From positions 124,001-188,000 of the forward strand of contig JANSYR010000010.1 of NCBI GenBank assembly GCA_024742285.1: DNA of 64,000 bases, in the 5' to 3' direction. A model generated the notes under the pieces. That model ran no database searches. It worked only from the letters and a program-made list of their open reading frames with translations, and was not told the DNA's origin. Positions 5,804 through 42,501 of this stretch are shown here, one piece after another. The DNA comes from a bacterium. Lineage in GTDB: Bacteria > Myxococcota_A > UBA9160 > UBA4427. The translations under genes were made by a program, and so were the position numbers. Position 1 is the first letter of the stretch, and every line of letters begins with the position of its first letter.

Positions 5804-5815
5804 CGAGGCCGGACG

Positions 5816-5833
5816 CTCGGGTCCAAGCCCGAG
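5816..5833 (+). terminator. Possible weak intrinsic terminator after the ADP-ribosylglycohydrolase gene
   Basis: CTCGGG (5816-5821) pairs with CCCGAG (5828-5833) around a 6-nt loop, 13 bp after the stop codon, followed by GGCCTTCT rather than a true U-run. It lies in a 165-bp gap before the next gene. The hairpin is real as sequence; its function as a terminator is uncertain. Confidence 0.3.
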
Positions 5834-5968
5834 GCCTTCTGGGGCAGATCCCGGAAATCGCGTCGTTTCCCTCGCCGGCACGCCGAAATCGCATAGGCAG
5901 CTCACCGGCAGATCCGATGAGAGCCCCACGCCGACCCGCTCCGGTCGCGCGAAGGGGAGACGTCGTCC

Positions 5969-9955: not shown

Positions 9956-10007
9956 GTGAGGGACCCAAGCGGGACGGACCAGCGCGGTCGGGCGAAGCGG
10001 GGCGGCG

Positions 10008-10751
10008 TCAGCGCTCGCTCGCCGCGTCGTCCTCGCTGGACGCCTCGGCGGCCTCGCCCTCGGCGGTGGCGGCGACCGGACCGCCTGCCGGATCCGCTTC
10101 GAGGCCGGCATCGCCGAAGGCGGCGCGGACGTCGGTCGACGTGATCAGTTGCTCATAGGCGTCGTCGAGGGCCTTGCCCAGGACGGCGCCGAAGTCCCGG
10201 CTACCGCGCCGGCTGCGCACCAGCGTCCCGCCCAGGAAGATGGGGAGCGCAGAGTCGACGACGCGGTGCTCCGCCTTGACCGACGTCGACCAGATCGGCG
10301 AGCCGTCGTCGGCGAAGAGGGCGAAGGACATCGTGAGCGCGGTGTCCACCGGCTCGGGGTCGATCACGCCGACGATCCCGTCCCAGTCGCGGTTGGCGGA
10401 GACGATGATGGCCTCGATCCAGGGGAGGCCGTTCGTCGAGCCGCATCCGTCGCCGTACACCGCAACGGCTTCCCGAAAGGCGGTCTTCGCCATCCGCTCG
10501 AAGTTGAGTGCGGCACGCTTGCCGAGCTCGATCCGATAGGGGTGGTCCGGGACGTTCCACTGTCGCTTGTAGAGCTTCGACGGAACGCAGATCTCGACGC
10601 TCCCGTCGATCGGCGGCGCCGGGTTCACGAAGGTCATCGTCGGGAGCTCGACGCTCAGGATCTCCCGCGTGCAGCCCATCGTCGCCAGCAACGCGAGGCA
10701 GGCGAGCAGCCGGGGCAGGGCGGTCGTCAGGAGGGGGGGCCAGGCGCGCAT
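10008..10751 (-). CDS. Predicted lipoprotein, function unknown
   Basis: A 247-residue protein with a lipoprotein signal: hydrophobic residues 12-23 and a lipobox ending at Cys27 (LATMGC), so it should be lipid-anchored in the inner or outer membrane. The mature part contains segments on the model of 'DGSVEICVPSKLYKRQWNVP' and 'IWSTSVKAEHRVVDS', and a Gly/Ala/Glu-rich tail of low complexity. I do not recognise the family. The pattern of alternating strands and a final helix could fit a small outer-membrane-associated assembly lipoprotein. It converges with the SDR gene and follows an MFS transporter gene on the same strand after 165 bp. Confidence 0.72.
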   Translation of the reverse strand: MRAWPPLLTTALPRLLACLALLATMGCTREILSVELPTMTFVNPAPPIDGSVEICVPSKLYKRQWNVPDHPYRIELGKRAALNFERMAKTAFREAVAVYGDGCGSTNGLPWIEAIIVSANRDWDGIVGVIDPEPVDTALTMSFALFADDGSPIWSTSVKAEHRVVDSALPIFLGGTLVRSRRGSRDFGAVLGKALDDAYEQLITSTDVRAAFGDAGLEADPAGGPVAATAEGEAAEASSEDDAASER

Positions 10752-10916
10752 CGTCGGATCCTCTCGGGCGCCCGTGTCGTCAGGGTTTCGGGGCGCTGGG
10801 GACGGAGAGTACAGCGGACCGCGCCCCCTGTCGGACTTCGTTCGATTCCCGGCGCTCGTCGAAGGGCCGCCTCGGGTCGCCGCGTCGAGCGAGGCCGCGG
10901 CCCGACGCGGCGTCCG

Positions 10917-12251
10917 TCAGTCGTTCCGCCGGTCGCCGAAGCTCGAGGTCGCTGCCAGGTCCCGCTCGATGGTGTGGCCGGCGAGGCCGAAGAGGACCGC
11001 ACCCACGCTGCAGGAGAGCAGTACGTAGAGGAGCGACCAACGGACGGCGAGGTCGCCGTAGCTCGGCTCGAGGAGGTCGTTCAGGATGCCGACGGCCCAG
11101 GGGCCGAGTCCCGTCCCGAGGAACGTGATGAAGATGATGATGAACGCGGAGGCGACGGCCCGCATGTGAGGCGGTGCCAGGTTCTGGGCGATGCCGTAGG
11201 CGACGGGGGCCCAGCCGGCGCTCGAGAGCGCCGCGGGGACGGCCCACCACATGGCGTCGCGTCCGTCCGGCCAGAGGAGCATCGCGCCCTGCCACGGGAT
11301 CATCAGGAAGACCGAGATCGCTCCGATCCAGGCGTACCACCTGAGACTGCGATGGCCGAGTCGGTCGGCGACCAGCCCCGTCAGCCAGGAGCCGACCAGG
11401 GCAGGCACGTACTGGATCGGGCCGAGCCGGGGGCCGATCTCCGATTGCGCCATGTCGTGGACGCGCTCGAAGAAGGTGGGCAACCACATGCCGAACCCGG
11501 TCCCCGCGAAGGACGCGATCCCCGCGCCGAGGCCGACGAGCCAGAACGTGGGCTTGGACGCGAGGAAGCGCGCGACCTCGGCGACCGTCGCCGTCTCGCC
11601 CTCGTCTCCTTCGTTCTTCGGGGCGCGCGCGGCGGGCGGCTCGAACTGACCGCGGGCGGGCTCCCGGACCGTCAGCCGAACGACGAGGGCGATCAGCAGT
11701 CCGGGCGCGCCGACGACGACGAACGTTATGCGCCAGCCGATCGCGTCGACGAGCAGCCCCCCGACGACCAGCCCGAGCATGCTTCCCCAGTACACGCCTC
11801 CCTGGAAGATCGAGAGTGCCGTCGCGCGCCTGTCGGCGGGAAAGTAGTCGGAGAGCAGCGCCTGAGCGGGGGCGGCCCCCGCGGCCTCGCCCACGCCCAC
11901 GAGGATCCGCGCGAGGAAGAGCTGGACCGCGTTCGTGACGAAGCCCGAGAGCGCCGTGAACGCGCTCCACATCGTCATGCCGATCGCGATGATGTCTCGG
12001 CGGGAGCCCTTGTCCGCCCAGCGGGCGATCGGGAGTCCCATGCCCGTGTAGAAGAATGCGAAGGTCGGTCCGAGCATCAGCCCGACCATCGAGTCCGAGA
12101 TCTCGAGGTCCTGCTTGATGTCCTGGATCATGACTGCGAGGACGTAGCGATCCAGGTAGTTGCACGTGTACATGATCACCATGATGGCGAGCACGTAGTT
12201 GGCGTAGCGCGGATTCGGGCGATCGCTGGGGGCGGCGGGCGGAGCGCTCAA
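10917..12251 (-). CDS. Major facilitator superfamily transporter (spinster / sugar-phosphate permease-like)
   Basis: About 444 residues with 12 predicted membrane helices. The first is YANYVLAIMVIMYTCNYLDRYVL, and the MFS A-motif follows as GLPIARWADKGSRRDII. The NYLDRY element at helix 1 and the RILVGVGEAAGAAPAQALL stretch in helix 4 are typical of the spinster-like/anion:cation symporter branch that exports lipids or organic acids. No ATG exists ahead of helix 1 except far inside the upstream gene. I chose a TTG at 12251, directly after the stop of the SDR gene; this start is uncertain. The tight spacing (1 bp) implies co-transcription with the SDR. Substrate unknown. Confidence 0.85.
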   Translation of the reverse strand: MSAPPAAPSDRPNPRYANYVLAIMVIMYTCNYLDRYVLAVMIQDIKQDLEISDSMVGLMLGPTFAFFYTGMGLPIARWADKGSRRDIIAIGMTMWSAFTALSGFVTNAVQLFLARILVGVGEAAGAAPAQALLSDYFPADRRATALSIFQGGVYWGSMLGLVVGGLLVDAIGWRITFVVVGAPGLLIALVVRLTVREPARGQFEPPAARAPKNEGDEGETATVAEVARFLASKPTFWLVGLGAGIASFAGTGFGMWLPTFFERVHDMAQSEIGPRLGPIQYVPALVGSWLTGLVADRLGHRSLRWYAWIGAISVFLMIPWQGAMLLWPDGRDAMWWAVPAALSSAGWAPVAYGIAQNLAPPHMRAVASAFIIIFITFLGTGLGPWAVGILNDLLEPSYGDLAVRWSLLYVLLSCSVGAVLFGLAGHTIERDLAATSSFGDRRND

Positions 12252-12252
12252 T

Positions 12253-13062
12253 TCAGGCTGGCTCGCCGATCCGGTCGATGCACTCGAGAACGAGGTCGAA
12301 GCGCGCCTTGAAGACCTCCCGCATGTCGTCGTGGGTGAAGATGTAGGGCAGGCCGCGGCGGATGCCGGAGAGGACGATCGGACCGATCTCGTCCGGAGCC
12401 ATCCCGCCGCGGATGAAGGGCGAGAGCGCTTCGGAGACGCCGCCGGTCTGGTCACCGGCATTCCGGAGGCGGTCGGACGCCGTCAGGTTGGTGTCGATCG
12501 GGCCGGGGCAGAGGGTGGAGACGCCGATCCCGTCGGGCTCGAGGTCCATGCGCATGGCGTCGCCGTAGGCGACCACACCGAACTTGCTGACCGCGTAGGC
12601 GAGGCCCGCGTTGTGAGAGGTGAAGCCGCCGATGGATGCGGTGTTCACGACGTAGCCGCCCCGTCCCTGCTCGCGCAGCACGGCGGCGGCCTTCTGCCCG
12701 ACGTGGAAGACGCCGTCCACGTTCACGTCCAGCACGAACTTCCAGTCGTCGAAGGTGCAGTCGCGCATCGCGCCGCCGAGATAGACCCCGGCGTTGTTGA
12801 AGACGAGATCGATCCCGCCGAACTCGGCCTTCGCGGCGTCGAAGAGTGCGTCCACCGAGGCGGGATCTCGCACGTCGGTCGCGACGGCAAGCGTTCGGGC
12901 ACCGCGTTCCTCGAGATTCGCGGCGGCGGATCGGGCGTTGTCCGGATCGATGTCGGCGATCACGAGGTGGGTCCCCTCGCCGGTGAGCGCGCGAGCGATC
13001 CCGAGGCCGATTCCAGAAGCACCGCCGGTGATGATCGCGACCTTGTCCTTGAAATCCTGCAT
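12253..13062 (-). CDS. Short-chain dehydrogenase/reductase (SDR)
   Basis: A 269-residue classical SDR with TGGASGIG at residues 12-19, NNAG at 89-92 and catalytic Ser143, Tyr156, Lys160 (YAVSK). The acidic residue after the second strand (IADIDP) points to NAD(H). GGAGG precedes the ATG. The long C-terminal helix region (FTHDDMREVFKARFDL) is common in SDRs that act on hydrophobic alcohols. It is the first gene of a two-gene run with the MFS transporter, so it may make or convert a transported compound. The substrate cannot be named. Confidence 0.92.
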   Translation of the reverse strand: MQDFKDKVAIITGGASGIGLGIARALTGEGTHLVIADIDPDNARSAAANLEERGARTLAVATDVRDPASVDALFDAAKAEFGGIDLVFNNAGVYLGGAMRDCTFDDWKFVLDVNVDGVFHVGQKAAAVLREQGRGGYVVNTASIGGFTSHNAGLAYAVSKFGVVAYGDAMRMDLEPDGIGVSTLCPGPIDTNLTASDRLRNAGDQTGGVSEALSPFIRGGMAPDEIGPIVLSGIRRGLPYIFTHDDMREVFKARFDLVLECIDRIGEPA

Positions 13063-13207
13063 GGGGCCTCCGGAGCAGCCTGCGCGAGGCAGACGATGGT
13101 TGCGTCCGACGATACACGGTCGACGGGCGGGCGCCGGCGGCCGTTTTTCACCGCTGCGTGCGGCTGGTAGGCTCGGGGCTCCCGACCTGGAGGACCGAGT
13201 GAACGTG

Positions 13208-14716
13208 ATGCCCGAGCCGACGTCCGGTGCCCCGAGACGCGTGGTCGCCTGTCTGATCTTGCTCGCGATCGGAACCGGTTGCGCTTCGGTCTCGCCCTGG
13301 AACCAGGGCTTCGTCGAGGTCGTGACCCCGAACTTCCGGGTGACGTCGAGCTTCGGTGAGGCCGCGGCGCGGTCGTTGGCCCTCGAGCTCGAGACCTTGC
13401 ATGCCGGCACCCTCTACGCCCTCGGTCTGCCCCCGGACGGCCGGCTCCCGAATCGCACGCGCGTGGTCGCCTTCGACGATCGTGGCTTCGGGCGCCCCTT
13501 CGCGATCCGTGGCGAGCCGGCCTCGTGGATCCCCTCGGTCGACGCGCCCATCCTCATGATCCGGGCGCCGGGGAGCTTCGCCGAGCGGGTCACCGCCGAC
13601 CTGCGCAATCGCTACGCCCGTCGCGTGCTCCGCGCGCTCTCCCGCGAACGCCCGCCGCTCTGGTATGCCGAGGGGCGTGGCTATCTGGCCAGCACGATCC
13701 GCGTCTCGGGCACCATCGCCGAGATCGGCCGACTCCATCCCGAGCATGCGCGCGCGATCATCGAGTGGAAGCGCAGCGATCTCGCGGACGTCTTCGACGT
13801 CACGCGCCTCGATGATCGATCGCGCGCGTCGCGCAGCGAGTTCGAGGCGGCGAGCTGGGCCCTCGTCCACACGATCCTCTTCGACGCGCCCCAGAAGCAG
13901 GCGGGGCGGCGGGCGCTCGAGCGGGTGCGCGTCGGCTTCGAGAGCGGCCGGACCGGACCTCTGGCCGACGCGATCGAGAAGCTGGGAACGCGGCGTGCGC
14001 TCGCGGAGCGTGTCTGGACCCATCTCGGCTCCGGGAAGCATCGGGTCGATCGCGTCCAGATCGCGGGTCCCGAGTCCGGCGAGATCGCTTCGAGAACGCT
14101 CTCGCCCCGGGAGGCCCACGTCGCCCTGGCGGAGCTGGCCCTCGACCTCGATCGACCCGCGCTCGCGCTCGAATACTTCGATCGCGCGCGCGAGGAAGCG
14201 CTGGGCGACGGCTCCGCGTCCCACCCCGACATCGAGCTGGGCCGCGCGCTGGCGCTGCTCCGACTCGGGCGGGCCGCGGAGGGTCGGGAGGCGCACGTCC
14301 AGCCTCGCCCGGACGCGTCCGTCGCGGCGCGGGCCGCCGAAGTCGAGCTCGAGCTGGCGCGCTCGAGCGGGGACGCTGGCGAACGGCAAGGGCACTTCGA
14401 TCTCGCCCTGGCGCATCTCCGTGCGGCGAGCAGCGGGGAAGGAGAGGGCGTCGCGCGCGTGTGGCTCGCGCTGGCTCGCCTCATCGACGGCGAGATCCCG
14501 ACCGGTCAGGGCGACACCCTGACGGCGGCGCGCTGTCTCGAGCTCGCCCGCGCGGAGGGGACCGGCGCGCTCGAGATCGATCTGGTCGACGCCGAGCTCC
14601 GGGCAGCGGACGGGCGCATGCGCGCCGCCGCCTTCGCGGCCCGCGAGGTCGTCTCGCGAAGCCACGATCCGATGCTCCGGAAGCGTGCGCGTCGCTATCT
14701 CGAGTCGGCGGACTGA
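13208..14716 (+). CDS. Lipoprotein with TPR-like C-terminal helices, possibly an inactive peptidase-like domain
   Basis: About 502 residues with a lipobox at Cys25 (AIGTGC). Residues 45-170 follow the layout of DUF1570/gluzincin-like surface proteins: a strand motif 'VEVVTPNFRVTSSF', then an RVVAFDDRGFGR block and an 'LWYAEGRGYLAS' motif equivalent to the conserved W-x-x-E-G. The expected HExxH zinc site before it is absent: the helix reads RYARRVLRALSRERPP. A non-catalytic role is therefore likely. Residues 290-500 contain paired Ala-rich helices resembling TPRs. The ATG at 13208 was preferred; GTG codons lie at 13199 and 13205. Its 3' end overlaps the convergent DUF3604 gene by 22 bp. Confidence 0.7.
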   Translation: MPEPTSGAPRRVVACLILLAIGTGCASVSPWNQGFVEVVTPNFRVTSSFGEAAARSLALELETLHAGTLYALGLPPDGRLPNRTRVVAFDDRGFGRPFAIRGEPASWIPSVDAPILMIRAPGSFAERVTADLRNRYARRVLRALSRERPPLWYAEGRGYLASTIRVSGTIAEIGRLHPEHARAIIEWKRSDLADVFDVTRLDDRSRASRSEFEAASWALVHTILFDAPQKQAGRRALERVRVGFESGRTGPLADAIEKLGTRRALAERVWTHLGSGKHRVDRVQIAGPESGEIASRTLSPREAHVALAELALDLDRPALALEYFDRAREEALGDGSASHPDIELGRALALLRLGRAAEGREAHVQPRPDASVAARAAEVELELARSSGDAGERQGHFDLALAHLRAASSGEGEGVARVWLALARLIDGEIPTGQGDTLTAARCLELARAEGTGALEIDLVDAELRAADGRMRAAAFAAREVVSRSHDPMLRKRARRYLESAD

Positions 14717-16641
14717 ACGCCGTCGGCGCCCGGGGTGTACCAGATCGGCGACGACCACGCCCGCTCCTGAGCCGTCCGCGGGATCTCCGGGTCGTCGCAC
14801 GCCGCCGGCCGATCCGCCCCCGAGAGGTTCAGGCACGTGCGCGCGTACGCTCGACAGCTCGGGTTCTCGACGACCCGCGCGTAGTAGGCGGCCCGCTCGG
14901 TGGGGTCGAAGTCGGGATCGGTCCAGCGCGCGCAGAGCGCGGCGGCGCCCGCCCCGATCGGCTCGCAGGTTCGTGGGTCGACGGTCGCCCCGTTCGCATC
15001 GCCGGCGACGTCGATCACCCGTTGCACGGCGCGCCCGTCGGCGTCCGACGTGACCTTGATGACCTGCAGGCGCTGGAGGAGACCGCCCGGGTGTCCCTCG
15101 ACGCCCGGGTCGGCGAGGGCGCTCGCGACGAAGTCCGGACCGCTTCGCGGAGCACGGGCCGGGAGGTCCGCGCCCATCGGAACGCCCGTCGCGTAGGCCC
15201 GCTTCGCCAGCTCCGGCTGGCTGCAGAGATCGCTCGGCAGGTCCCAGCCGCCGAAGAAACGGAGCTCGATCCGAGGGCCGCTCGTCGCGAAGGTCTCGCG
15301 CCGCTCGAGCGCGTCGAAGAGCGAGGAGCGGGTGTTCTCCTCGGCCCAGACGCCGGCGAGGCCGCCCGGGTTGTCGTTGCCGAAGCTGTTGGTTCGCTGG
15401 GGACGTGCAACACCGTCGCGGACCCAATCGTCGGCGTCCCCCGGGAGGCCCTCGTGGATGTCGGTCGACCCGATGAAGCCGACCTGGAAGGGGTTGGATC
15501 CGACCCGCTCGGCCTCGTGGAGGCCGCGGGCCACGGCGTAGCGCGCGAAGTCGCGACGCGTGAAGCAGCCACGGCCGAGGAGCGCGCCACCTCCGACGCC
15601 GTCGCCGCAGTCCGGGACGTCGCCTTCCCTCGGTCGTCGGTATTTCTCGAAGCCACACAGCTCGTCGGTCGCCCCGAGCACGCCGGCGAGTCCGTTCCGG
15701 CACTCCGAGTCGCCCTTGATCTGGAACATCTCGACGAGGGGCTCCATCCTTCGTCGCAGCAGCGTGTAGGCGCGCTGCTCCGCCGGCGTCCTGGTCCCCC
15801 CGTAGTCGAGGGAGAAGACGCGCCCGTTCGAGAGATTCGGGTTGTGCGGGATCGTGACGGCATCGCAGCCCGTGCCCGCGTCGACGCAGCTCTCCGCGAG
15901 CGACTGCCAGAGGCCGACGGCCTCCGGGGTGGTCCGCGAGGAGACGGGGAGGGCGGGGACGGTTTCGTTCCGGAAGATCACGTTGCGGTGGACCTTCGAC
16001 ATCTCCGGATTCGACGAGTACTCGTAAGCGACGAAGGTGCTGAACGCACAGGGCCGATCATGGCGCGCCGCTGCGTCCTGGATCTCCTGCCAGGCGGTGC
16101 GCATGCCTTCCATGCAGCGGGCGCCGCTCTCGACGCCGCCCGGGCCGCAAACGACCTCGCTGTCGAGGTCGTTCAGCAGGGCGACGATCTTCGCGACGCC
16201 GTCGGCGAGGTCGCCGACCGGGGCCCAGGGCGCACGGAAGCGGCGACAGATCTCGCTGTCGTAGGCGCCGCTGCCCGGCGTCGTGCAGACCCAGGGACCG
16301 CCGAGCATCTCGGCGTGATCGGTCACGGCAGCGAAGTCGAGCGGGCGCGGGATCGTGGCCTCGGCGGCGACGACGCCCGACTGCGTGATCACGCGCATGC
16401 CCGCGGGCCCGCGACCGCTCGCGAAGCGGTAGGCATCGTCCGGCCGCGTACGCGTCTGGAACACGTAGGCGTCGGAGGAGAGCGACGTGTGGACATGGAG
16501 GTCGCCGAAGAAGGCGCGTCGCTCGGGCGAATGATCGGCGCAGCGATCTCCCGCCGCGCTGCTCGGGGCCGCCGCCGCGACCGCGAGCAGCCCACAGGCG
16601 AGCGCCGAGCGGGCGCGCTTCGAACGGGGCGACGGGATCAC
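14695..16641 (-). CDS. Exported DUF3604 family protein (PHP-like metal-dependent fold)
   Basis: About 648 residues with a signal peptide (basic start, hydrophobic residues 12-30). The mature protein opens with FFGDLHVHTSLSSDAYV, where His49 and His51 are likely metal ligands, and continues with DFAAVTDHAEMLGG. This is the DUF3604 pattern, a family related to PHP-type phosphoesterases but without an assigned reaction. Many paired cysteines suit an exported, disulfide-bonded protein. The start is a GTG at 16641 overlapping the stop of the molybdopterin oxidoreductase (GTGA), so translation is coupled. The neighbour has no export signal, so the pair would act in different compartments, or one depends on the other in a way not seen here. 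Confidence 0.85.
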   Translation of the reverse strand: MIPSPRSKRARSALACGLLAVAAAAPSSAAGDRCADHSPERRAFFGDLHVHTSLSSDAYVFQTRTRPDDAYRFASGRGPAGMRVITQSGVVAAEATIPRPLDFAAVTDHAEMLGGPWVCTTPGSGAYDSEICRRFRAPWAPVGDLADGVAKIVALLNDLDSEVVCGPGGVESGARCMEGMRTAWQEIQDAAARHDRPCAFSTFVAYEYSSNPEMSKVHRNVIFRNETVPALPVSSRTTPEAVGLWQSLAESCVDAGTGCDAVTIPHNPNLSNGRVFSLDYGGTRTPAEQRAYTLLRRRMEPLVEMFQIKGDSECRNGLAGVLGATDELCGFEKYRRPREGDVPDCGDGVGGGALLGRGCFTRRDFARYAVARGLHEAERVGSNPFQVGFIGSTDIHEGLPGDADDWVRDGVARPQRTNSFGNDNPGGLAGVWAEENTRSSLFDALERRETFATSGPRIELRFFGGWDLPSDLCSQPELAKRAYATGVPMGADLPARAPRSGPDFVASALADPGVEGHPGGLLQRLQVIKVTSDADGRAVQRVIDVAGDANGATVDPRTCEPIGAGAAALCARWTDPDFDPTERAAYYARVVENPSCRAYARTCLNLSGADRPAACDDPEIPRTAQERAWSSPIWYTPGADGVQSADSR

Positions 16642-28013: not shown

Positions 28014-29378
28014 ATGTCGATCCTCGGCGACGCTCGCTTCTACGTGCAGTTCCTGCGCGATCCGGTCGACTGCCTGATCCGACTCGACCGGGAGCCGGGC
28101 GCCAAGCGAAACTTCGTACGGAAGGGGCGACAGGTCGCGTTCCTCCTCGGACGACGCGAGAACGAGGCGATCCTGGGCGACCCGGACACGTTCCACGTCC
28201 TGCCGATCACGCTGCCCGGGCCCGAGGGCTCCGCCCAGCGGCGGATCGGCGAAGGGCTCGTGAACCTCAACGGACCGATCCACAAGCGCCACCGGAGCCT
28301 GCTCGTCCCGCCCCTCGCCGGGTCGGCCCTCGACGCGTACCACGCTCCGGTCGTGGCGGCGGTGGACGCAATGCTCGCCGGCTGGCGCGCCGGGGAGACC
28401 CGGGATCTCCTCGACGACATGAACCGGCTCGCGATTCGCGTGAGCAGCGCGACGCTCTTCGCGATGGACGACGCCGCCGAGGCGGATCGGGTCGCGGCGA
28501 CGATCGACCGCTGGTTCAAGATGAACACGGCCCTCGGCGTTCGACTCTTCCAGCGGGATCTGCCCGGCACGCCCTACGCACGGATGCTGCGAGCGGCAGA
28601 AGAGGTCGAGGCGACGATGCTCGCGCTGGTGGCGAAGCGCCGGGCGGAAGGTGCGGCGGGGGAGGACATCCTCTCCCGTCTGATCCGGGCGAAGGACGAG
28701 GTGGGCGCGCCGATCGGCGACGCGGAGCTGGTGGGCGAGTCGACGATCGCGTTCATCGCCAGCCACGAGACGACGTCGAAGGCCCTCGCCTGGACGCTGT
28801 TCCTGGTGGCGCAGCATCCGGCGGAGGCGCGGCGCCTCGTCGACGAGATCCGGCGGGTCGTGGGCGACGGCGCCCCCTCGGTCGAGGACCTCGGGCGCCT
28901 GCCGGCGCTCGATCGCGCGCTCAAGGAGAGCCTGCGGATCCTCCCGCCCGTCGCGTTCAACGTGCGTCGCGCGAACCGGGACACCGAGGTCCTCGGGCAG
29001 ACCCTGCCGGTCGGCTCGACCGCGGTCTTCAGCCACTACATCACGCACCACGACCCGGCGATCTATCCGGAGCCCGAGCGCTTCCGCCCCGATCGCTGGG
29101 AGGGGCTCAAGCCGACCCAGTACGAGTACCTGCCCTTCAGCGCCGGTCCGCGTCGCTGTATCGGCGAGGGCTTCACGACGCGGATGCAGAAGATCACGCT
29201 GATCCGGCTGCTCCAGCGCTTCCGCTTCACCGTCGTCGCCGGCAGCCGCTTCGATCGCCACCAGGCGGTCACCGTCGCGCCCCGCGAAGGCGTCCCCGTC
29301 ACCCTCCACCCCCCGGACGGCGCCTTCGAGCGCGTCCCGGTGGCGGGCGCGATCCACCAGATGGTGAAGCTCGACTGA
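28014..29378 (+). CDS. Cytochrome P450
   Basis: A 454-residue soluble P450. The I-helix motif AFIASHETTS contains the acid-alcohol pair for oxygen activation; the K-helix KESLR gives Glu-x-x-Arg; the heme-binding loop FSAGPRRCIG places the thiolate at Cys382. It resembles the HETT-type fatty-acid/terpene P450s (CYP110/120-like) more than the CYP51-like one at 37220. An upstream in-frame ATG at 27912 exists, but 28014 leaves room for the divergent promoters. No ferredoxin is adjacent, so it may use the ferredoxin at 34937 or another carrier. Followed by a convergent epoxide hydrolase; an oxidised product could be handed to it. Confidence 0.92.
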   Translation: MSILGDARFYVQFLRDPVDCLIRLDREPGAKRNFVRKGRQVAFLLGRRENEAILGDPDTFHVLPITLPGPEGSAQRRIGEGLVNLNGPIHKRHRSLLVPPLAGSALDAYHAPVVAAVDAMLAGWRAGETRDLLDDMNRLAIRVSSATLFAMDDAAEADRVAATIDRWFKMNTALGVRLFQRDLPGTPYARMLRAAEEVEATMLALVAKRRAEGAAGEDILSRLIRAKDEVGAPIGDAELVGESTIAFIASHETTSKALAWTLFLVAQHPAEARRLVDEIRRVVGDGAPSVEDLGRLPALDRALKESLRILPPVAFNVRRANRDTEVLGQTLPVGSTAVFSHYITHHDPAIYPEPERFRPDRWEGLKPTQYEYLPFSAGPRRCIGEGFTTRMQKITLIRLLQRFRFTVVAGSRFDRHQAVTVAPREGVPVTLHPPDGAFERVPVAGAIHQMVKLD

Positions 29379-34936: not shown

Positions 34937-35143
34937 TCACGCCTCGATCGAAAGGGCGCGATTCGGGCAGTAGCGAACCGCTTCCTCGACCTTCTCTCGA
35001 AGCCCCTCGTCCGCCTCCGCCACGACCAGCTCGACGTGGGAGTAGGACCCGTCGTCGGACTCGACGACGCGGAACACCTCGGGCGCGGTGTCCTCGCACA
35101 TGCCGTGCCCCTGGCAGAGGTCCAGGTCCGTCTTCACCTTCAT
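34937..35143 (-). CDS. [3Fe-4S] ferredoxin
   Basis: A 68-residue ferredoxin of the P450-partner type. Cluster ligands are Cys10, Cys16 and Cys59 (the last in YCPNRAL). The place of a fourth cysteine is His13 (C-x-x-H-x-x-C), so a [3Fe-4S] cluster is expected. These proteins pass electrons to P450s and sometimes to Rieske oxygenases. It is the last gene of the tetR-CYP51-like run, with a 4-bp start overlap (ATGA, 35140-35143) with the Rieske oxygenase, so it probably feeds one or both oxygenases of the operon. Confidence 0.9.
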   Translation of the reverse strand: MKVKTDLDLCQGHGMCEDTAPEVFRVVESDDGSYSHVELVVAEADEGLREKVEEAVRYCPNRALSIEA

Positions 35144-36102
35144 CGATCCGTCTCCGTCTGCACGTAGAACTGGCTGGCCCATTTCCGGTAGTCACCGACC
35201 GGTCCGTCGCCGTCACAGAGGCGCGGCCGGTCGTAGTAGGTCTTGTTCTCCCAGATCGGGAAGTCCTGCTCGACGGCGGCCGCCATGTCGTCCGAGTAGG
35301 CCTGGTGGAAGGCGGCCATCTCCCGGTCGCTCCGGCCCGCCTTCTTGCCGATCACGCCGAAGCGCATGTGGAGCATCTCGTCGTCGACCGGCGTCATGCC
35401 CATGAGGATCACCGTATCCCCCATCCCGGTGTATTTGACGTAGCTGCAGCCGAGGCCGGGGTTGCGGCCGGTGATTACGATGTCGTCGTGCTCGTCGTCC
35501 ATCGTCGTGACGTGCTTGCTCGTCACCGTCTGCCATTGGATCTCGTGCCCGACGAATTCGACGGTGCGGTTGGGCGGTGGCTCCATCAGGTGGACCTGGG
35601 TCAGGTGGGGCCAGTCGACGCTGTTCTCGGAGATCTCCTGGGGATGGGTCCGGATCGTCCAGTCGTACTGGGTCCAGTCCGCCGTCCAGTCCGCGGCGCC
35701 GAACTCCGGAATCGATGGCGGATCGAAGGTCGGGGCCGCTCCGTCGGGGTGGTACCAGGCCCAGACGACGCCGGCGACCTCGCGGGTCGGGTAGGTCCGC
35801 GCACGCACGCCCTGCGGCTTCCGCTTGGCGTAGGGCACGTCGAGGCAGGACCCGTCGCCGCCGAACCTCCAGCCGTGAAAGGGACAGCGGATCCCCTCGC
35901 CGTCGACCTTGCCCCCCACGCCGAGGTGGGCTCCGAGGTGGGGACAGTAGGCGTCCAGCACGCTCGCCTCGCCGTCCTCCGTCCGGAACACCACGAGCTC
36001 CTCGCCGAAGTAGGCGCGCCGGATGATCTGGCCGGGTGCGATCTCGGAGCTCCAGGCGACGGGATACCAGCTGAAGGGCGTGCCGAAGGGGAAGCGGGGC
36101 AT
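35140..36102 (-). CDS. Rieske-type non-heme iron oxygenase in CYP51-like operon
   Basis: A 320-residue oxygenase. Rieske ligands are Cys53/His55 (CPH) and Cys73/His76 (CPFH). The mononuclear iron site is SENSVDWPHLTQVH, with Asp163, His166 and His171. The C-terminal IWENKTYYDRPRL plus DGPVGDYRKWASQFY block is shared with the other Rieske protein at 8034-9062 and resembles the KshA/DAF-36-type branch acting on sterols and other large hydrophobic substrates. AAGGAG precedes the ATG. It sits between a reductase-like gene (20 bp upstream) and the ferredoxin (overlap), so it should receive electrons locally. A sterol-type substrate is inference from the operon. Confidence 0.87.
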   Translation of the reverse strand: MPRFPFGTPFSWYPVAWSSEIAPGQIIRRAYFGEELVVFRTEDGEASVLDAYCPHLGAHLGVGGKVDGEGIRCPFHGWRFGGDGSCLDVPYAKRKPQGVRARTYPTREVAGVVWAWYHPDGAAPTFDPPSIPEFGAADWTADWTQYDWTIRTHPQEISENSVDWPHLTQVHLMEPPPNRTVEFVGHEIQWQTVTSKHVTTMDDEHDDIVITGRNPGLGCSYVKYTGMGDTVILMGMTPVDDEMLHMRFGVIGKKAGRSDREMAAFHQAYSDDMAAAVEQDFPIWENKTYYDRPRLCDGDGPVGDYRKWASQFYVQTETDR

Positions 36103-36122
36103 CGTCGACTCCTTCGCGCGAC

Positions 36123-37181
36123 CTAGCGCTCGCTCGGGCGAACGAAGCGGCCGTGGGCGGCGATCGGCGGCAGGTCGAGGGTGGTGCGCATCCCCGGCTC
36201 CGCCGCGCAGACCGGGGCGATCGCGTTCACGCAGTTCATGGCCGTCGCCAGCAGGCCGAACTCGGTCGAGCTGCCGTCGGTGACCGGGCCGAACGAGAGC
36301 TGGAGCGGCGGATCGCCGTCGATCTCGACGCGATACTCGAGGATCGCGTCGTAGGGCCAGTTCGGTTCCAGGTCGGGCGTCATCCGCCAGTAGGTCTGGA
36401 ACTCGATCACCGCCTCGTCGTCGACGAAGCCGAGATACTCGTAGTGCTGACCGGCGACGTGGCCCGCCGGAATCGTACCGGCGGAGACCTCGACGTCGTG
36501 GGGGCAGGTCGCGAACTCGAAGCGCTTCTCGTATCGCTCGATCTCGAAGCCCAGGCTCGCGGCGACCATGTCCATCGACTGGAAGAAGATCGTGCTCATG
36601 ACGTCGAGGAGCGGCGGGGGATTCTTGCGCGCCTCGTCCGCCGGCAGGCCGAAGCCGAGCTGGTCCATGACCATCTCGGGGCTCTCGCTCATGACCGACA
36701 TGTTGCAGATCTCGATTACGCGCACGCGATCGACCCGACGCGAGAGGCCCGATAGGACGACGGGCAGACGGTCGCCGCTGAAGCCCGGGTGGATCCCCGT
36801 GCCGTGGAAGGACACGCCCCCAGCGGCACACGCCTTGTCGAGGCGTTGCTTCTCGGCGCCGTCCTTGAGATACGCCCAGCCCGCCGGCGTGATCACGTTG
36901 AGTCCCGCTTCGAGGAGGCGACAGATCTCGCCCACGTCCGCGAGGAGCGGCGCGTAGAGCACGCAGTCGGCGTCAAGAGCGAGGAGCGCGTCCACGTCGC
37001 GAGTCGCGGTGATCCCGATCGGGTCGATCCCGACGAGGGAGCCCGCGTCCTTTCCTTCCTTGGCTTCGGAGTAGACCTTCACGCCGACGAGCTCGAGGCC
37101 CGGATCCTCGAGGATGGCGGGGATGGCGTGGGTGCCGATGCTCCCCGTCGCCCACTGGATCACGCGAATTGGCGCCGCCAT
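36123..37181 (-). CDS. Dihydrodipicolinate-reductase-like NAD(P)-binding oxidoreductase
   Basis: About 352 residues. The N-terminal Rossmann segment IRVIQWATGSIGTHAIPAI is the pattern of DapB-like and 2,4-diaminopentanoate dehydrogenase-like proteins, followed by a C-terminal alpha/beta domain with HGTGIHPGFSGDRLP. These proteins are often found next to P450s and Rieske oxygenases in Actinobacteria and related genomes, but their reaction is unknown. The start is ambiguous: a 27-bp unit containing the SD-like GGTGAAG and ATGGCGGCGCC is duplicated, giving ATG codons at 37220 and 37181. The upstream one overlaps the P450 stop (TGATG). Likely an NAD(P)H-dependent step in the same oxidation pathway. 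Confidence 0.8.
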   Translation of the reverse strand: MAAPIRVIQWATGSIGTHAIPAILEDPGLELVGVKVYSEAKEGKDAGSLVGIDPIGITATRDVDALLALDADCVLYAPLLADVGEICRLLEAGLNVITPAGWAYLKDGAEKQRLDKACAAGGVSFHGTGIHPGFSGDRLPVVLSGLSRRVDRVRVIEICNMSVMSESPEMVMDQLGFGLPADEARKNPPPLLDVMSTIFFQSMDMVAASLGFEIERYEKRFEFATCPHDVEVSAGTIPAGHVAGQHYEYLGFVDDEAVIEFQTYWRMTPDLEPNWPYDAILEYRVEIDGDPPLQLSFGPVTDGSSTEFGLLATAMNCVNAIAPVCAAEPGMRTTLDLPPIAAHGRFVRPSER

Positions 37182-37236
37182 CGCTTCACCCGCCGCGCTT
37201 CGCGGAATCGGCGCCGCCATCACTTCACCCGCCGCG
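37171..37236. repeat. Duplicated translation-start segment of the DapB-like gene
   Basis: A 27-bp sequence at 37171-37197 recurs with one mismatch at 37210-37236, spaced 39 bp, i.e. 13 codons. Each copy carries an SD-like element, an ATG and the codons for MAAPI. The gene therefore has two alternative in-frame starts. Confidence 0.85.
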
Positions 37237-38566
37237 TGTAGCGGAGGTTGCAGGGGTCGCTCGGGCGGAGGATCAGCGAGGGCATGACCTCGCGGTAGCT
37301 CTCCGGCGGATCGACGCAGGAGAGCTCGTAGCGCGAGAGCAGGGCGGTCAGGATCGACTTCACCTGGAGGTAGGCGAACGCGTTGCCCACGCACTTGCGC
37401 TTCCCGCCGCCGAAGGGGATCAGCGCGAAGAGGTGCTCCGGAAGCGGGCGATGGGGATCGAAGCGCTCCGGATCCGGGAAGTGTTCGGGGAGGCGGTGGG
37501 ACACGTAGGGCGAGATCACCAGGTTCGTCCCGACCTCGAAGGTGTTGCCCTTGTACTCGAAGGGCTCGTTCACGACCTGGCGCATGAGCGTGAGAAGCGG
37601 CGGGTGGAGCCGCAGGGTCTCGCTCAGGAAGCCCTCCATCACGGGCATCTCGCGCAGCGACGTGAACGAGAGATCCCCGCCGTCTCCGTAGATCGCGTCG
37701 ACCTCCTCGATCACCTCGCGCTGGTACTCCGGATGACGCGCGAGCTCGACGCAGCACCAGGCGGCGGTGTTCGAGCTGGTGTGGAAGCCGCCGAACATGA
37801 TCCAGATGATCATGCCGGGGATCAGCTCGTGGGCCATCGCGCTGCCGTCCTTGTAGCGCGCATCGAGGAAGCTCTGGAGCATGTCCGTCGGCGGTTCCTC
37901 GCCGCGGGCGTTCGCTTCGAGCCGATCGTTCACCGCCTCCATCAGCATGTCCTGGAGCCGCGCCCGCGCCTCGTCGCGCTTGGCGAAGGCGTCCGCCTCG
38001 GACTTGAAGTCGATCACCGCCTCCGGCGAGATCGCGTGCTCGAGCTGGGCGAAGAGCACGCCGAATTCGTCCGTCAGCCGCTCGCGAAACTCCCTGCCCA
38101 TCAGACAGTGGGTCGAGGTACGCAGGACCATGTCCTTGAACGTGTCGTGGAATTCCCGGACGCCCTCGTCGCCCCAGTCGGCGATGAAGTCCTCGACTTC
38201 CTCGGCCACGACCTGGGCATAGGTCTTCATGCGCTTGGGGCGGAGCGCGTCGGACATGAAGCGGACCTGCTGGCGCTCGATCTCGAGCGGCGCGCCGTAC
38301 TGGATCCCCTCGCCGAAGACGGGGACCATGTACTGATAGGGTGCCGCGGTGGAGACGCGATCGTCCGGCGACCGGTAGACCGCTTCCTGGGCGTCGGCGC
38401 TCCCGAGCAGGACGTGCTTGGCGCCGAAGAGGTCGAACTCCGCGAGCTCGCCGCATTCCTGGTAGGCCCGGTAGAGGAAGTGGGCCGCGTGGGCCATGAA
38501 CTCGTCGTAGTGGCCCGACTCGGGCTTCGCGCCACTCACGACCTTGGGGCGGGGCTGATCACTCAT
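37220..38566 (-). CDS. CYP51-like cytochrome P450 (sterol 14-alpha-demethylase clan)
   Basis: A 448-residue P450 with strong CYP51 features. Substrate-recognition site 1 reads YQYMVPVFGEG (residues 77-87), close to the YxxxxPxFGxGV pattern of mycobacterial CYP51. The I-helix is MFGGFHTSS with His262-Thr263-Ser264 (HTS) rather than the usual acid-Thr pair, a CYP51 hallmark. SETLRLHPPLLTLMRQV holds Glu316-x-x-Arg319. The heme loop FGGGKRKCVG gives thiolate Cys392. CYP51 enzymes remove the 14-alpha methyl of sterols. The ATG at 38566 has AGAGGA 6 bases upstream. It lies 60 bp after tetR and overlaps the reductase gene. Whether the substrate is a sterol, hopanoid or an exogenous terpenoid is unknown. 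Confidence 0.82.
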   Translation of the reverse strand: MSDQPRPKVVSGAKPESGHYDEFMAHAAHFLYRAYQECGELAEFDLFGAKHVLLGSADAQEAVYRSPDDRVSTAAPYQYMVPVFGEGIQYGAPLEIERQQVRFMSDALRPKRMKTYAQVVAEEVEDFIADWGDEGVREFHDTFKDMVLRTSTHCLMGREFRERLTDEFGVLFAQLEHAISPEAVIDFKSEADAFAKRDEARARLQDMLMEAVNDRLEANARGEEPPTDMLQSFLDARYKDGSAMAHELIPGMIIWIMFGGFHTSSNTAAWCCVELARHPEYQREVIEEVDAIYGDGGDLSFTSLREMPVMEGFLSETLRLHPPLLTLMRQVVNEPFEYKGNTFEVGTNLVISPYVSHRLPEHFPDPERFDPHRPLPEHLFALIPFGGGKRKCVGNAFAYLQVKSILTALLSRYELSCVDPPESYREVMPSLILRPSDPCNLRYTRRVK

Positions 38567-38626
38567 GGGCATTCCTCTCGTGTTGACTCTCGTGTCGTCT
38601 CGTGGTGTCGACCCGAAGGAGAGCGC

Positions 38627-39295
38627 CTAACGCGGGCGCCCCGCCTCGGTACAGAAGGCGCGCCGGAGCAGCACCTCCACTTCGTTCAGGATGGCCTCGT
38701 CGGACGGATCCGCGCCGGCCTCGTACCAGTCCGCGAGCAGCACCTGCTGCATCGCGAGCATCGTGCGCGCCAGCCGATCCGGATTCCCCGGCTCGAAGAC
38801 GCCTTCCTCGATTCCGCGCTCGAAGATCGCGGCCAGTTGGGCCACGCCATCGCCCCAGACCGCCGCGCGCCGGGACTCGCGATCCATCGAGCGCCGTACG
38901 CCCCAGTTCGCGCCCTCGTCGAGGTACATCCGCAGGTACTCGGGCCGCTCCATGAAGTACGCGAGGTAGGCGCGGCTTCCGGCGAGGAGCGATTCGAGCG
39001 GATCCGACGCCGCGTCCTCGGCGGAGATCGACGCCGTGTGGATCTCCCGGAGCCGGGCTTCGTGGAGGGCGTCGACGATCTCGGCCTTGCCCTTGTAGAC
39101 GGAGTAGAGCGTTCCGAGCGAGATCCCCGCGGCCTCCGCCAGCTGTTCCATGCGCGTCGCGGCGACGCCGTCCCGCGCGAACGCCTCGGAGGCGGCCTCG
39201 ACGACGAGATCGCGATAGGCGGCGTGGCGCGCGTTCTTCGCGTGCTCGCGGGCCGCGGCTCGGCGGCCACCGGGGGAGGGGGAGGCGCTCGTCAT
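38627..39295 (-). CDS. TetR family regulator of the CYP51-like operon
   Basis: A 222-residue TetR protein; the helix-turn-helix is at about residues 47-76 (RMEQLAEAAGISLGTLYSVY). It lies first in the minus-strand run with CYP51-like, reductase, Rieske and ferredoxin genes and divergent from the DUF1214 gene. The ATG at 39295 has no SD. The bases just before it belong to an inverted-repeat operator with a -10-like AATATC placed so that transcription would start at or next to the A of the ATG. A leaderless mRNA is therefore likely. It probably represses both arms. Confidence 0.9.
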   Translation of the reverse strand: MTSASPSPGGRRAAAREHAKNARHAAYRDLVVEAASEAFARDGVAATRMEQLAEAAGISLGTLYSVYKGKAEIVDALHEARLREIHTASISAEDAASDPLESLLAGSRAYLAYFMERPEYLRMYLDEGANWGVRRSMDRESRRAAVWGDGVAQLAAIFERGIEEGVFEPGNPDRLARTMLAMQQVLLADWYEAGADPSDEAILNEVEVLLRRAFCTEAGRPR

Positions 39296-39333
39296 AATCT
39301 GATATTGACAGATTAGAATCAGATTTCAATCCT
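39296..39333. promoter_or_regulatory. Divergent promoters and TetR operator of the CYP51-like/DUF1214 locus
   Basis: An AT-rich segment in very GC-rich surroundings. AATCTGAT (39296-39303) and ATCAGATT (39318-39325) form a perfect 8-bp inverted repeat, and CAGATT (39309-39314) adds another half-site. On the plus strand, TTGACA (39305-39310) and AATCCT (39328-39333) are a -35/-10 pair with 17-bp spacing for the DUF1214 gene. On the minus strand, TTGAAA (39329-39324) and AATATC (39306-39301), also 17 bp apart, would start transcription at the tetR ATG. The operator overlaps both promoters. Boxes are seen directly; binding by the adjacent TetR is inference. Confidence 0.65.
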
Positions 39334-39418
39334 GGATCGACCGCATTTCTGCCATCGTCCGGGGACGCCCCGGGGCGTCCGCTCCGCGGCGGCCCCACGC
39401 GGGCGATGAGGAGGGGCC

Positions 39419-40522
39419 ATGCCCGACGTCGACGAGCGCCTGCAGAGCCTGATGGACGGCTCCGCCTGGGACGAATTCTGTGATCGCCTGAAGCAGGTCG
39501 GGCGCCACGTCCTGCGCCCCGAGGTCCCCGCGGACCCCTTCACCCGGGCCGAGGGCTACCGCTACCTGACCCGGGTTCTGCGTTCGTCCTTCGACATCTT
39601 CACCGAGCATGCCGATCCGGAGTTCCCGGTCATCTACCGCCCCTGCGACGAGATGGTGAAGTACGGCGGGGACGATCCGGACAAGTACCTCCAGAAGTGC
39701 GCGCTCTCCGGCGCCTTCGAGTACCGGATCCGCGGCCATCGCGGCACGATCCAGTCCGTCAGCTTCCTGACCCAGGGCAGCAACTTCGGGCAGGGTGGGA
39801 CGATGCTCCCGACGGGCTTCCTCGACACGGACGGGCTCGAGGTCGCGGACGACGGCACGTTCGAGATCATCGTCAGCACGAAGGAGCACCCTGGGAACTG
39901 GCTTCCGATGACCGACGAGACGCAGGTGCTGCTCATTCGGCAGACCTTCGGCGATCGTTCGAAGGAGACCATCGCCGAGCTCGAGATCGAGTGTCTCTCG
40001 GCGCGCGAGATCCCGGATCCGCTGGATCCCGCGAAGTTCGCCGAAGGGCTCGGCTCCGCCGTCGGCTTCCTCGACGGCACGGCGAATCTCTTCTGTGACT
40101 GGGCGGCGCGCTATCAGGCGCACCCGAACGAGCTTCCCCGGGAAGATCCCGAGATCACCCGTCGCGTCGGTGGCGATCCGGCGATCGCCTACTTCAACTC
40201 GTACTGGACCCTGGCCGAAGGCGAGGCACTCGTGGTCGAGCTGGATCACGTTCCGCCGTGTCGCGCGTGGAGCCTTCAGGTCTGCAACTACTGGATGGAG
40301 AGCCTCGACTACCGGTACCACCGGACGAACGTGAACAAGGACACCGCCCACGTCGAGCCCGACGGCTCCGTCCGGATCGTGATCACCGAGAAGGACCCCG
40401 GCTGGCCGAACTGGCTCACGACCGCCGGCCACACGAACGGCACCTTCCTCTTTCGCCTGACCGGCGCGGAGGAGATCGTCGAGCCGAGGACGCGGGTCGT
40501 GAAGGCGAGCGAGCTCGCGTGA
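39419..40522 (+). CDS. DUF1214 domain protein
   Basis: A 367-residue soluble protein. The C-terminal third matches the DUF1214 pattern, with NYWMESLDYRYHRTNVNKDTA and an ITEKDPGWPNWL stretch. DUF1214 proteins are common in terpenoid- and steroid-using bacteria but have no assigned reaction. The N-terminal part is helix-rich. GAGGAGGGG lies ahead of the ATG. It is the first gene of a divergent operon with a quinoprotein dehydrogenase (4-bp overlap, GTGA). Its position opposite the CYP51-like operon across a shared operator suggests it belongs to the same pathway. Confidence 0.8.
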   Translation: MPDVDERLQSLMDGSAWDEFCDRLKQVGRHVLRPEVPADPFTRAEGYRYLTRVLRSSFDIFTEHADPEFPVIYRPCDEMVKYGGDDPDKYLQKCALSGAFEYRIRGHRGTIQSVSFLTQGSNFGQGGTMLPTGFLDTDGLEVADDGTFEIIVSTKEHPGNWLPMTDETQVLLIRQTFGDRSKETIAELEIECLSAREIPDPLDPAKFAEGLGSAVGFLDGTANLFCDWAARYQAHPNELPREDPEITRRVGGDPAIAYFNSYWTLAEGEALVVELDHVPPCRAWSLQVCNYWMESLDYRYHRTNVNKDTAHVEPDGSVRIVITEKDPGWPNWLTTAGHTNGTFLFRLTGAEEIVEPRTRVVKASELA

Positions 40523-42501
40523 GGGGCGTCGCAACGGCGGTGCTTCCGTTGCTGGCCCTCGCGCTCTCGGGCTGCGCCGAGGATCCGTCCTGTGAGCCGG
40601 CGACGAGCGGCGGGCCGGCCAGCGAGTGGCCGAGCTACGGGAACGACTCCGGCGGCACCCGGTACTCGCCCCTCGCGCAGATCCGCTCGGAGAACGTCGC
40701 CTGCCTCGAGGAGGTATGGCGGTTCGAAACGGGGGATCTGCCGGGCGCGCGCGGCGGGCAGACGCGGTCGCCCTTCGCGTCCGAGACCACGCCGATCCTC
40801 GTCGACGAGACGCTCTATCTCTGTACGCCGACCAACTTCGTGATCGCGGTGGACCCGGCGACCGGGGAGGAGCGCTGGCGCTTCGATCCGGGGTTCGACC
40901 TCGACAGTCGATACGGCAACCAGCTCGTCTGCCGCGGCGTTTCGAGCTGGCGCGACCCGGCGGCCGACGAAGGCGCGACTTGCGGGCGTCGGATCTTCAC
41001 GGCGACGAACGACGCGCGATTGATCGCGCTCGACGCGTCGACCGGCGACCCCTGCCCGGGCTTCGGCGAGGCTGGACAGGTCGACCTGAACCCCGGCGTC
41101 GGGCGCCAGGACTGGAAGGGCGAGTACCAGGTCACCTCGCCGCCAGCCGTCGGACGCGACGTCGTGGTGGTCGGAGCGGCGATCGCGGACAACAAGCGGA
41201 CCGATGCGCCGAGTGGCGTCGTGCGGGCCTACGACGCGCGGACGGGCACGCTCCGGTGGGCCTGGGACCTGCGCTCGCCGGGCTTCGTCCCGACGACCGA
41301 GAACACGAGCGAGGCCGGCTACGCGCTCGGGACGCCGAACGTCTGGGCACCGATGTCCGTCGATCTCGAGCGTGATCTGCTCTTCGTGCCGACGGGGAAT
41401 CCGGCCCCGGACTACTATCGGGGCGATCTCGACGTCGACTACTACGGAAGCTCCGTCGTCGCGATCCATCTGGCGAGCGGCGAAGTCGCCTGGCGATTCC
41501 AGACCGTGCACCACGACCTCTGGGACTTCGACGTTCCCGCGCAGCCGACCCTCTTCACTCTGCGTCGGGACGGGCGCGAGATTCCGGCCCTCGTCCAGGC
41601 GACGAAGATGGGGATGCTCTTCATCCTCCATCGCGAGACCGGCCAGCCGCTCTTCCCCGTCGAGGAACGGCCGGTCCCACAGGTCCGCGTCGCGGGGGAG
41701 GCGCTCGCGCCGACGCAGCCCTTCACCGTCAAGCCAGCGCCCCTCGTCCGCCATTCGCTCTCGCCCGACGACGCCTGGGGACTCACGCCCTTCGATCGCG
41801 CGGCCTGTCGCGACGCAATCGCTGCGCTCCGCTTCGAGGGGATCTACACGCCGCCGACCCTCGAAGGGACCCTGATGGTGCCCGGCAACGCGGGCGGGCA
41901 GAACTGGGGCGGACTCGCCGTCGACGAGGAGCGCCAGCGGATCCTGGTCAACCAGCAGGACTTCCCATGGAAGGTCGCCCTCGTCGAACGGAAGGACATG
42001 CCGGAGGACCTGAAGTTCTCCGGCGAAGGCTACGTCGAGCTCCAGCCCATGAAGGGCACGCCCTACGGCATGACCCGCGAGATGATCACGTCGCCCCTCG
42101 GCGTGCCCTGCAGCACGCCGCCCTGGGGCACGCTCGCGAGCGTCGACCTGAGTTCCGGCGACATCGACTGGCAGGTTCCGCTCGGCGGACTCCGCACCCT
42201 CGCGCCGCTCCCGATTCCCTGGGACCTGGGCGTGCCGAACATCGGTGGGCCCCTCGCCACGGGGGGCGGTCTCGTCTTCATCGGCGCCGCGATGGAGAAC
42301 CGGTTCCGCGCCTTCGACGCCGAGACCGGCGACCTTCTCTGGGGAACGGACACGCCCTACGCCCCGATCGCGACGCCCATGACCTACCGCGTGGGCGGGC
42401 GTCAATACGTGGTGATCGGCGCGACCGGCTATGAGCGCGTCGGCCTCCCGCCCGGCGACGTCTTCATCGCGTACGCGCTCCCGGACGAGGGCGCGCCCTA
42501 G
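40519..42501 (+). CDS. Lipoprotein quinoprotein (PQQ-dependent type) dehydrogenase
   Basis: A 660-residue protein with lipobox Cys19 (LALSGC), so anchored on the periplasmic side of a membrane. The mature part is a PQQ-type beta-propeller: repeated AxD..TGE..W segments (AVDPATGEERWRF, ALDASTGDPC, AYDARTGTLRW, AFDAETGDLLW). The TVHHDLWDFDVPAQP motif is typical of the glucose/quinate-type membrane quinoprotein branch. It oxidises alcohols or sugars and passes electrons to ubiquinone or cytochromes. The GTG start overlaps the DUF1214 stop. It converges with tamB, overlapping its end by 4 bp. No PQQ biosynthesis genes are present here. The substrate could be an alcohol released in the oxygenase pathway. 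Confidence 0.87.
   Translation: MRGVATAVLPLLALALSGCAEDPSCEPATSGGPASEWPSYGNDSGGTRYSPLAQIRSENVACLEEVWRFETGDLPGARGGQTRSPFASETTPILVDETLYLCTPTNFVIAVDPATGEERWRFDPGFDLDSRYGNQLVCRGVSSWRDPAADEGATCGRRIFTATNDARLIALDASTGDPCPGFGEAGQVDLNPGVGRQDWKGEYQVTSPPAVGRDVVVVGAAIADNKRTDAPSGVVRAYDARTGTLRWAWDLRSPGFVPTTENTSEAGYALGTPNVWAPMSVDLERDLLFVPTGNPAPDYYRGDLDVDYYGSSVVAIHLASGEVAWRFQTVHHDLWDFDVPAQPTLFTLRRDGREIPALVQATKMGMLFILHRETGQPLFPVEERPVPQVRVAGEALAPTQPFTVKPAPLVRHSLSPDDAWGLTPFDRAACRDAIAALRFEGIYTPPTLEGTLMVPGNAGGQNWGGLAVDEERQRILVNQQDFPWKVALVERKDMPEDLKFSGEGYVELQPMKGTPYGMTREMITSPLGVPCSTPPWGTLASVDLSSGDIDWQVPLGGLRTLAPLPIPWDLGVPNIGGPLATGGGLVFIGAAMENRFRAFDAETGDLLWGTDTPYAPIATPMTYRVGGRQYVVIGATGYERVGLPPGDVFIAYALPDEGAP

Follow-up and report, generated by a model that had tools for sequence, protein, structure and literature searches.

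Among described enzymes, those closest to the P450 analyzed here are the CYP51-ferredoxin of Methylococcus capsulatus and CYP51B1 (Rv0764c) of Mycobacterium tuberculosis. Bacterial CYP51s with an adjacent or fused ferredoxin have also been described as partners of 8,14-Bsr, and the same work raised, for Mycobacteriales, the question of why sterol degraders that do not produce sterols retain a CYP51 (Lee, Giner and Welander 2026, PMC13277303). Two further systems are relevant for their Rieske oxygenases: KshA, the oxygenase of 3-ketosteroid 9-alpha-hydroxylase (PDB 4qdc and 2zyl), and SdmA/SdmB, which carry out C-4 demethylation. Here, we describe a five-gene minus-strand operon in a 64-kb stretch of a Myxococcota genome (contig JANSYR010000010.1, positions 124,001 to 188,000; "the window"), which codes for a TetR regulator, a P450, a DapB-like oxidoreductase, a Rieske oxygenase and a ferredoxin. 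Its P450 is 42% and 38% identical to the M. capsulatus and M. tuberculosis enzymes, shares their fold and is likewise paired with a ferredoxin gene, but unlike in M. capsulatus the 3Fe-4S ferredoxin is encoded separately. At a probability of about 0.5, judged from the sequence, we propose that the operon serves catabolism, as a module that oxidizes a scavenged sterol or a triterpenoid resembling one.

Family, fold and phylogeny of the P450

The P450 motifs ExxR and FGGGKRKCVG are intact. In phmmer searches of the PDB, its best matches were the CYP51s of M. capsulatus (374 bits) and M. tuberculosis (333 bits), followed by eukaryotic CYP51s; the first match outside the family was CYP204A3 (9wat) with 179 bits, and the following one scored 112 bits. 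As a nomenclature rule of thumb, P450s are assigned to the same family from approximately 40% identity to a characterized member upward, a level attained here marginally, with 41.7% identity to the M. capsulatus and 38.3% to the M. tuberculosis enzyme. The AlphaFold model (mean predicted local distance difference test score, 87.5) matched 6mcw with a Z score of 48.1 and a root mean square deviation of 1.9 over 440 residues, and the first 13 entries of the structure comparison were all CYP51s.

A tree of 55 rows placed the window P450 within a branch of 30 sequences with support of 100/99, hereafter called clade A. A 42-row tree was rooted on one eukaryotic CYP51 (PDB 6q2c, from Acanthamoeba castellanii) together with a CYP51-like P450 of Planktothrix. 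In this tree clade A was nested among the bacterial CYP51s, including the M. capsulatus and M. tuberculosis enzymes, and not outside them. Y76, F83 and H259 in the numbering of M. tuberculosis are reported never to vary among CYP51s (PMC2629123), and all three occur in the window P450 and in every one of the 30 clade A rows; the window P450 also keeps G84 and T260 in the same numbering. Identity, modeled fold, invariant residues and tree placement thus agree in assigning the P450 to a distinct branch of the CYP51 family, which bears out its initial annotation as CYP51-like.

Clade A is found in uncultured Myxococcota and Deltaproteobacteria metagenome-assembled genomes (MAGs), Halieaceae, Spongiibacteraceae, Litorivivens and Croceicoccus estronivorus. 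Its sister is L064_1, a P450 of Halioglobus in which the CYP51 motifs are canonical. The locus that encodes it (L064) holds two P450-ferredoxin pairs, at 4747-6297 and 10001-11514, one with canonical motifs and one of clade A, and so provides a ready-made set for comparison of the two types. We also considered a relationship to the estrogen P450 EdcA. The Novosphingobium plasmid matches were at best 27% identical, with EdcA itself not identified among them, and this candidate was rejected.

Other P450s were noted in the course of the analysis. The window carries a second one at 28014-29378 on the plus strand, whose nearest NCBIfam models are ApyO and albaflavenone monooxygenase. On Planktothrix agardhii plasmid p2 (L072; NZ_LR882940.1, ~37.4-52.1 kb), a CYP51-like P450 scores 409 bits with the M. 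capsulatus and 400 bits with the Acanthamoeba CYP51. Around it lie genes for a squalene/phytoene synthase-family protein, an SDR, an FAD oxidoreductase, two more P450s and three Rieske proteins, and the locus looks like a plasmid-borne cyanobacterial cluster for sterol or triterpenoid biosynthesis.

Sterol synthesis and steroid degradation in the genome

The genome containing the window (6.5 Mb, 95% complete) gave no match to the squalene/oxidosqualene cyclase family (PF13243) and none to 8,14-Bsr at an E value of 1e-10, and it has no ERG4/ERG24-type (C14) sterol reductase. Cyclases were searched for in this genome and its Myxococcota relatives, not in the cultured strains. The genome carries a steroid-ring operon at C20 (Table 1). 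In this operon HsaA (514 bits; cut-off, 450) and HsaD (419 bits; cut-off, 400) both exceed their profile thresholds, and HsaC is the best family for a third product, at 333 bits below its cut-off of 450. The operon also holds HsaF and HsaG (aldolase and aldehyde dehydrogenase) and a hydratase. The genome thus has the HsaA, HsaC and HsaD combination used to recognize 9,10-seco degraders, with HsaC below its cut-off, and in addition a KstD-like gene that scores 720 bits against a cut-off of 789. Because cyclase, 8,14-Bsr and C14 reductase are lacking but an HsaA/HsaD/HsaC-type operon is present, catabolism appears much more likely than synthesis in this organism, as the initial annotation had supposed when it favored scavenging or catabolism. 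Two families that host clade A, Halieaceae and Spongiibacteraceae, include isolates that grow on cholesterol (PMC5790920).

Organization of the operon and of related loci

All seven genes of the operon and the divergent pair were recovered in the window at the positions given in Table 1. The five minus-strand genes are tightly packed; they either overlap slightly (4 bp between the Rieske and ferredoxin genes) or are separated by no more than 54 bp. Pfam supports every family named in the initial annotation. Directly 5' of tetR lies an AT-rich block with two GATTNNAATC elements, which is kept in two close relatives, loci L040 and L041. The operator shared by the operon and the divergent pair that had been postulated is plausible, the evidence being conservation of this block.

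Table 1. Features of the operon, the divergent gene pair and the steroid-ring operon of the same genome (window positions unless a locus is given)
Feature	Position	Strand	Basis
3Fe-4S-type ferredoxin, 68 aa, presumed P450 electron donor	34937..35143	-	Pfam Fer4_15 41.9 bits; 3-Cys motif
Rieske non-heme iron oxygenase with KshA_C, 320 aa	35140..36102	-	Pfam KshA_C 141.7 bits and Rieske 80.8 bits
DAP_DH_C / DapB_N NAD(P)-dependent oxidoreductase, 365 aa (352 aa if start is 37181)	36123..37220	-	Pfam
CYP51-family cytochrome P450, 450 aa, clade A	37220..38572	-	Pfam p450 212.9 bits, phmmer, tree, model, residues
TetR-family regulator, 222 aa, first gene of operon	38627..39295	-	Pfam TetR_N
Putative operator-like AT-rich block, two GATTNNAATC elements at 39311-39331	39296..39336	.	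sequence conservation
DUF1214 protein, 367 aa, divergent	39419..40522	+	Pfam 41.2 bits
Pyrroloquinoline quinone (PQQ)-dependent dehydrogenase-type lipoprotein, 657 aa	40528..42501	+	Pfam PQQ 769 bits; lipobox LALSGC
HsaA/HsaC/HsaD-type steroid-ring operon	L091 (G000:C20) 9459-15187	-	profile scores

For the Rieske, DapB-like, DUF1214 and PQQ proteins, we infer roles from family membership and operon position alone. The ferredoxin is assigned to the 3Fe-4S type because its intact CxxHxxC...CP motif holds only three Cys residues, plus a His. The Rieske protein has intact CxH...CxxH and NxxDxxHx4H motifs and the Rieske plus KshA_C architecture of KshA, its best PDB match (4qdc, 164 bits). Unlike KshA, however, it lies outside the KshA clade, on a supported branch of its own in a tree with characterized KshA proteins, and the operon has no KshB-type reductase. 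The presence of a Rieske protein and an NAD(P)-dependent enzyme beside a CYP51-type P450 recalls SdmA/SdmB, the analogy drawn in the initial annotation. It did not hold, as the Rieske protein scores 71.4 bits with the SdmA model (NCBIfam NF052579) against a curated cut-off of 600, and the operon lacks an SdmB-like gene. A second KshA_C Rieske oxygenase (110.9 bits) is encoded in the window at 8034-9062 on the minus strand, 26 kb away from the operon.

The DapB-like protein combines a Rossmann-type N-terminal domain with DAP_DH_C, and its PDB relatives are dihydrodipicolinate reductase-like proteins and amine dehydrogenases, so that its sequence is better described as DAP_DH_C / NAD(P)-dependent amine-dehydrogenase-like. 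It was considered as the reductase partner of the Rieske protein. Domain and PDB searches found no flavin or Fe-S domain in it, and for that reason this role is unlikely. Nothing specific on DapB-like proteins in steroid catabolism emerged from a literature search. Of the divergent pair, DUF1214 is also divergent in L041 (86% identity) and gives only fragmentary matches in L040, and a PQQ gene is missing beside it in both loci. The window PQQ dehydrogenase scores 717 bits with TIGR03074, under the cut-off of 832. We rejected it as an orthologue of the PQQ proteins near gammaproteobacterial clade A P450s, since a paralogue in the same genome (C1:28104) is closer (55% versus 49%). At another locus (L136, 14017-16625, plus strand), a DAP_DH_C gene precedes a gene whose start resembles DUF1214, with no NCBIfam match, which hints at a recurring DapB-like/DUF1214 pairing.

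We compared gene order across related loci; outside the window, genes were called with a simple codon-based caller, and neighbor families were clustered automatically, with counts inflated by near relatives. The MAGs are incomplete and sometimes misnamed. One titled Klebsiella pneumoniae (L051) carries steroid-type genes of marine gammaproteobacterial character and is probably a misnamed bin. The complete order TetR-P450-DapB-like-Rieske-ferredoxin occurs only in the window, L040 and L041, while a ferredoxin gene lies directly 3' of the P450 gene in nearly all related loci. DapB-like homologues (36-38%) are also found near clade A P450s in L043, L044 and L047. Judged by gene order, the conserved unit is the P450 with its ferredoxin, and the linkage of the Rieske and DapB-like genes is lineage specific rather than part of a conserved machine. 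The absence of a conserved neighborhood, which the initial annotation regarded as damaging to its proposal, therefore applies to the latter pair and not to the former.

The neighbors of gammaproteobacterial clade A genes include LLM oxidoreductases, 3bHSD/SdmB-like proteins, KstD-like flavoproteins, KshA_C Rieske proteins, OYE, ALDH, a membrane FA_hydroxylase-family protein and TonB receptors. The ALDH, OYE, LLM and 3bHSD families and one further family (f17) also flank, in Myxococcota, a canonical CYP51-ferredoxin fusion with an 8,14-Bsr homologue; identities between the two groups are 53-63% for ALDH, 54% for OYE and 50-56% for f17. The TetR proteins upstream of clade A P450s are likewise homologous (47-53%) to those ahead of canonical CYP51-ferredoxin genes (L030, L035 and L039). 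We identified 8,14-Bsr by its position beside CYP51-ferredoxin, its length, its SnoaL/NTF2-like fold family and its published description (PMC13277303), not by comparison with a published sequence. In L044, such a homologue precedes a clade A P450 gene by 2 bp, and the canonical CYP51 of the same MAG has none adjoining it. In one genome (G001), both P450 types are encoded ~12 kb apart. Clade A loci thus resemble the described CYP51-ferredoxin/8,14-Bsr pairs in their ferredoxin, flanking families and regulator, but the window genome lacks 8,14-Bsr and its P450 belongs to a branch separate from those found beside 8,14-Bsr in most Myxococcota relatives.

Reaction and substrate of the P450

The P450 is probably a CYP51-family monooxygenase of steroid or triterpenoid catabolism. 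Its likeliest reaction is oxidation of the 14-alpha-methyl group; that this is specifically 14-alpha-demethylation we consider slightly less than an even bet. A number of observations count against the proposed module. The B-C loop signature of CYP51 ends in F/Y-D/A; in clade A it ends in Y-G in 30/30 sequences, D90 (M. tuberculosis numbering) being replaced by Gly, and the V/I/L two positions before is Gln in all 30 (Q91 in the window). The loop of the branch reads GIQYGA instead of GVVFDA. Y186, which binds the sterol 3-hydroxyl in M. capsulatus CYP51 (PMC9519919), is V, L, T, M or I in 30/30, L324 is Thr or Ala, and in the 11 of 30 sequences that make up the Myxococcota branch, Phe replaces H259 (M. 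capsulatus numbering). 8,14-Bsr is absent from 20 of the 28 clade A genomes searched as well as from the window genome, and because most of these genomes lack it, reduction of a 14-demethylated diene would call for a different reductase. HsaA above its cut-off is more frequent in clade A relatives (5/13) than in others (11/135; Fisher test, p = 0.006, uncorrected for relatedness), but co-occurrence is limited to those 5, and in some of the clade A MAGs nothing HsaC-like scores above 60 bits.

These residue changes suggest that the pocket is modified where it holds the 3-hydroxyl, in a manner compatible with CYP51 chemistry. They fit a neofunctionalized CYP51 that keeps the fold and places a hydroxyl group elsewhere on a steroid or bile-acid intermediate (e.g., a 3-oxo steroid, the side chain or ring D). 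Such a shift would be in line with the Phe beside the signature His in the window's branch, the near-general lack of 8,14-Bsr and, at some gammaproteobacterial loci, the KstD-like and KshA_C-like genes in the vicinity of the P450. Nevertheless, the CYP51-invariant residues are kept throughout clade A, and the flanking module is common to canonical CYP51/8,14-Bsr loci, with the L044 operon uniting the two. Moreover, Gly also takes the place of D90 in the Acanthamoeba CYP51 (6q2c), and the position of Y186 is filled by Trp, Phe or Val in eukaryotic CYP51s (PMC9519919). Because genuine CYP51s carry such residues, the D90 and Y186 changes are no proof of lost function and were dropped as such. We regard neofunctionalization as the main rival, held at well under even odds.

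The other explanations concern the substrate. Modification of an imported or self-made sterol or hopanoid for the cell's own use, which the SdmA comparison of the initial annotation implies, is very improbable. Many relatives of the same order carry a squalene/oxidosqualene cyclase-type gene, and a CYP51-family P450 with a Rieske protein and a reductase in one operon would suit it, but the window genome lacks cyclase, ERG24 and 8,14-Bsr, the SdmA score is far below its cut-off and the surrounding genes are catabolic. Hardly more probable is a non-steroid substrate (a diterpenoid, xenobiotic or secondary metabolite), with the likeness to CYP51 reflecting ancestry only and the operon a local assembly. 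The Rieske and DapB-like genes stay in place in only two close relatives, and the genome holds 9 KshA_C and 8 DAP_DH_C genes, besides several PQQ dehydrogenases. Against this, the P450-ferredoxin unit is conserved with steroid-type genes across two phyla, and the genome encodes HsaA and HsaD equivalogs. Of the compact demethylation or oxidation machine first envisaged, oxidation by a CYP51-family enzyme in catabolism is thus favored, and a fixed five-gene set is not.

In the catabolism of a scavenged sterol or triterpenoid, the operon could work as follows. Once TetR binds its ligand, the operon would be derepressed, and the divergent DUF1214-PQQ pair perhaps with it. The 3Fe-4S ferredoxin, reduced by a ferredoxin reductase encoded outside the operon, would pass electrons to the P450 for oxidation of the 14-alpha-methyl group or an adjoining carbon, otherwise a block to ordinary steroid degradation. 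The KshA_C Rieske enzyme may then oxidize the rings at a second position, with the DAP_DH-type enzyme interconverting a carbonyl, and the product would enter the 9,10-seco (HsaA-HsaC-HsaD) route.

More speculatively, clade A may represent an undescribed, ferredoxin-paired CYP51 subfamily for sterol catabolism that demethylates A-ring-modified (e.g., 3-oxo) 14-methylsterols in bacteria without a cyclase. It could replace the canonical CYP51/8,14-Bsr pair in one mobile catabolic module common to Myxococcota and Gammaproteobacteria, a proposal that in this full form we think rather unlikely. A CYP51 branch that occurs in steroid degraders devoid of a cyclase and in described cultured strains (Parahaliea, Litorivivens and Croceicoccus estronivorus), in a gene neighborhood it has in common with the CYP51/8,14-Bsr pair, makes the idea of a CYP51 for catabolism directly testable. 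Clade A also offers natural variants of the residues thought to fix the sterol 3-hydroxyl.

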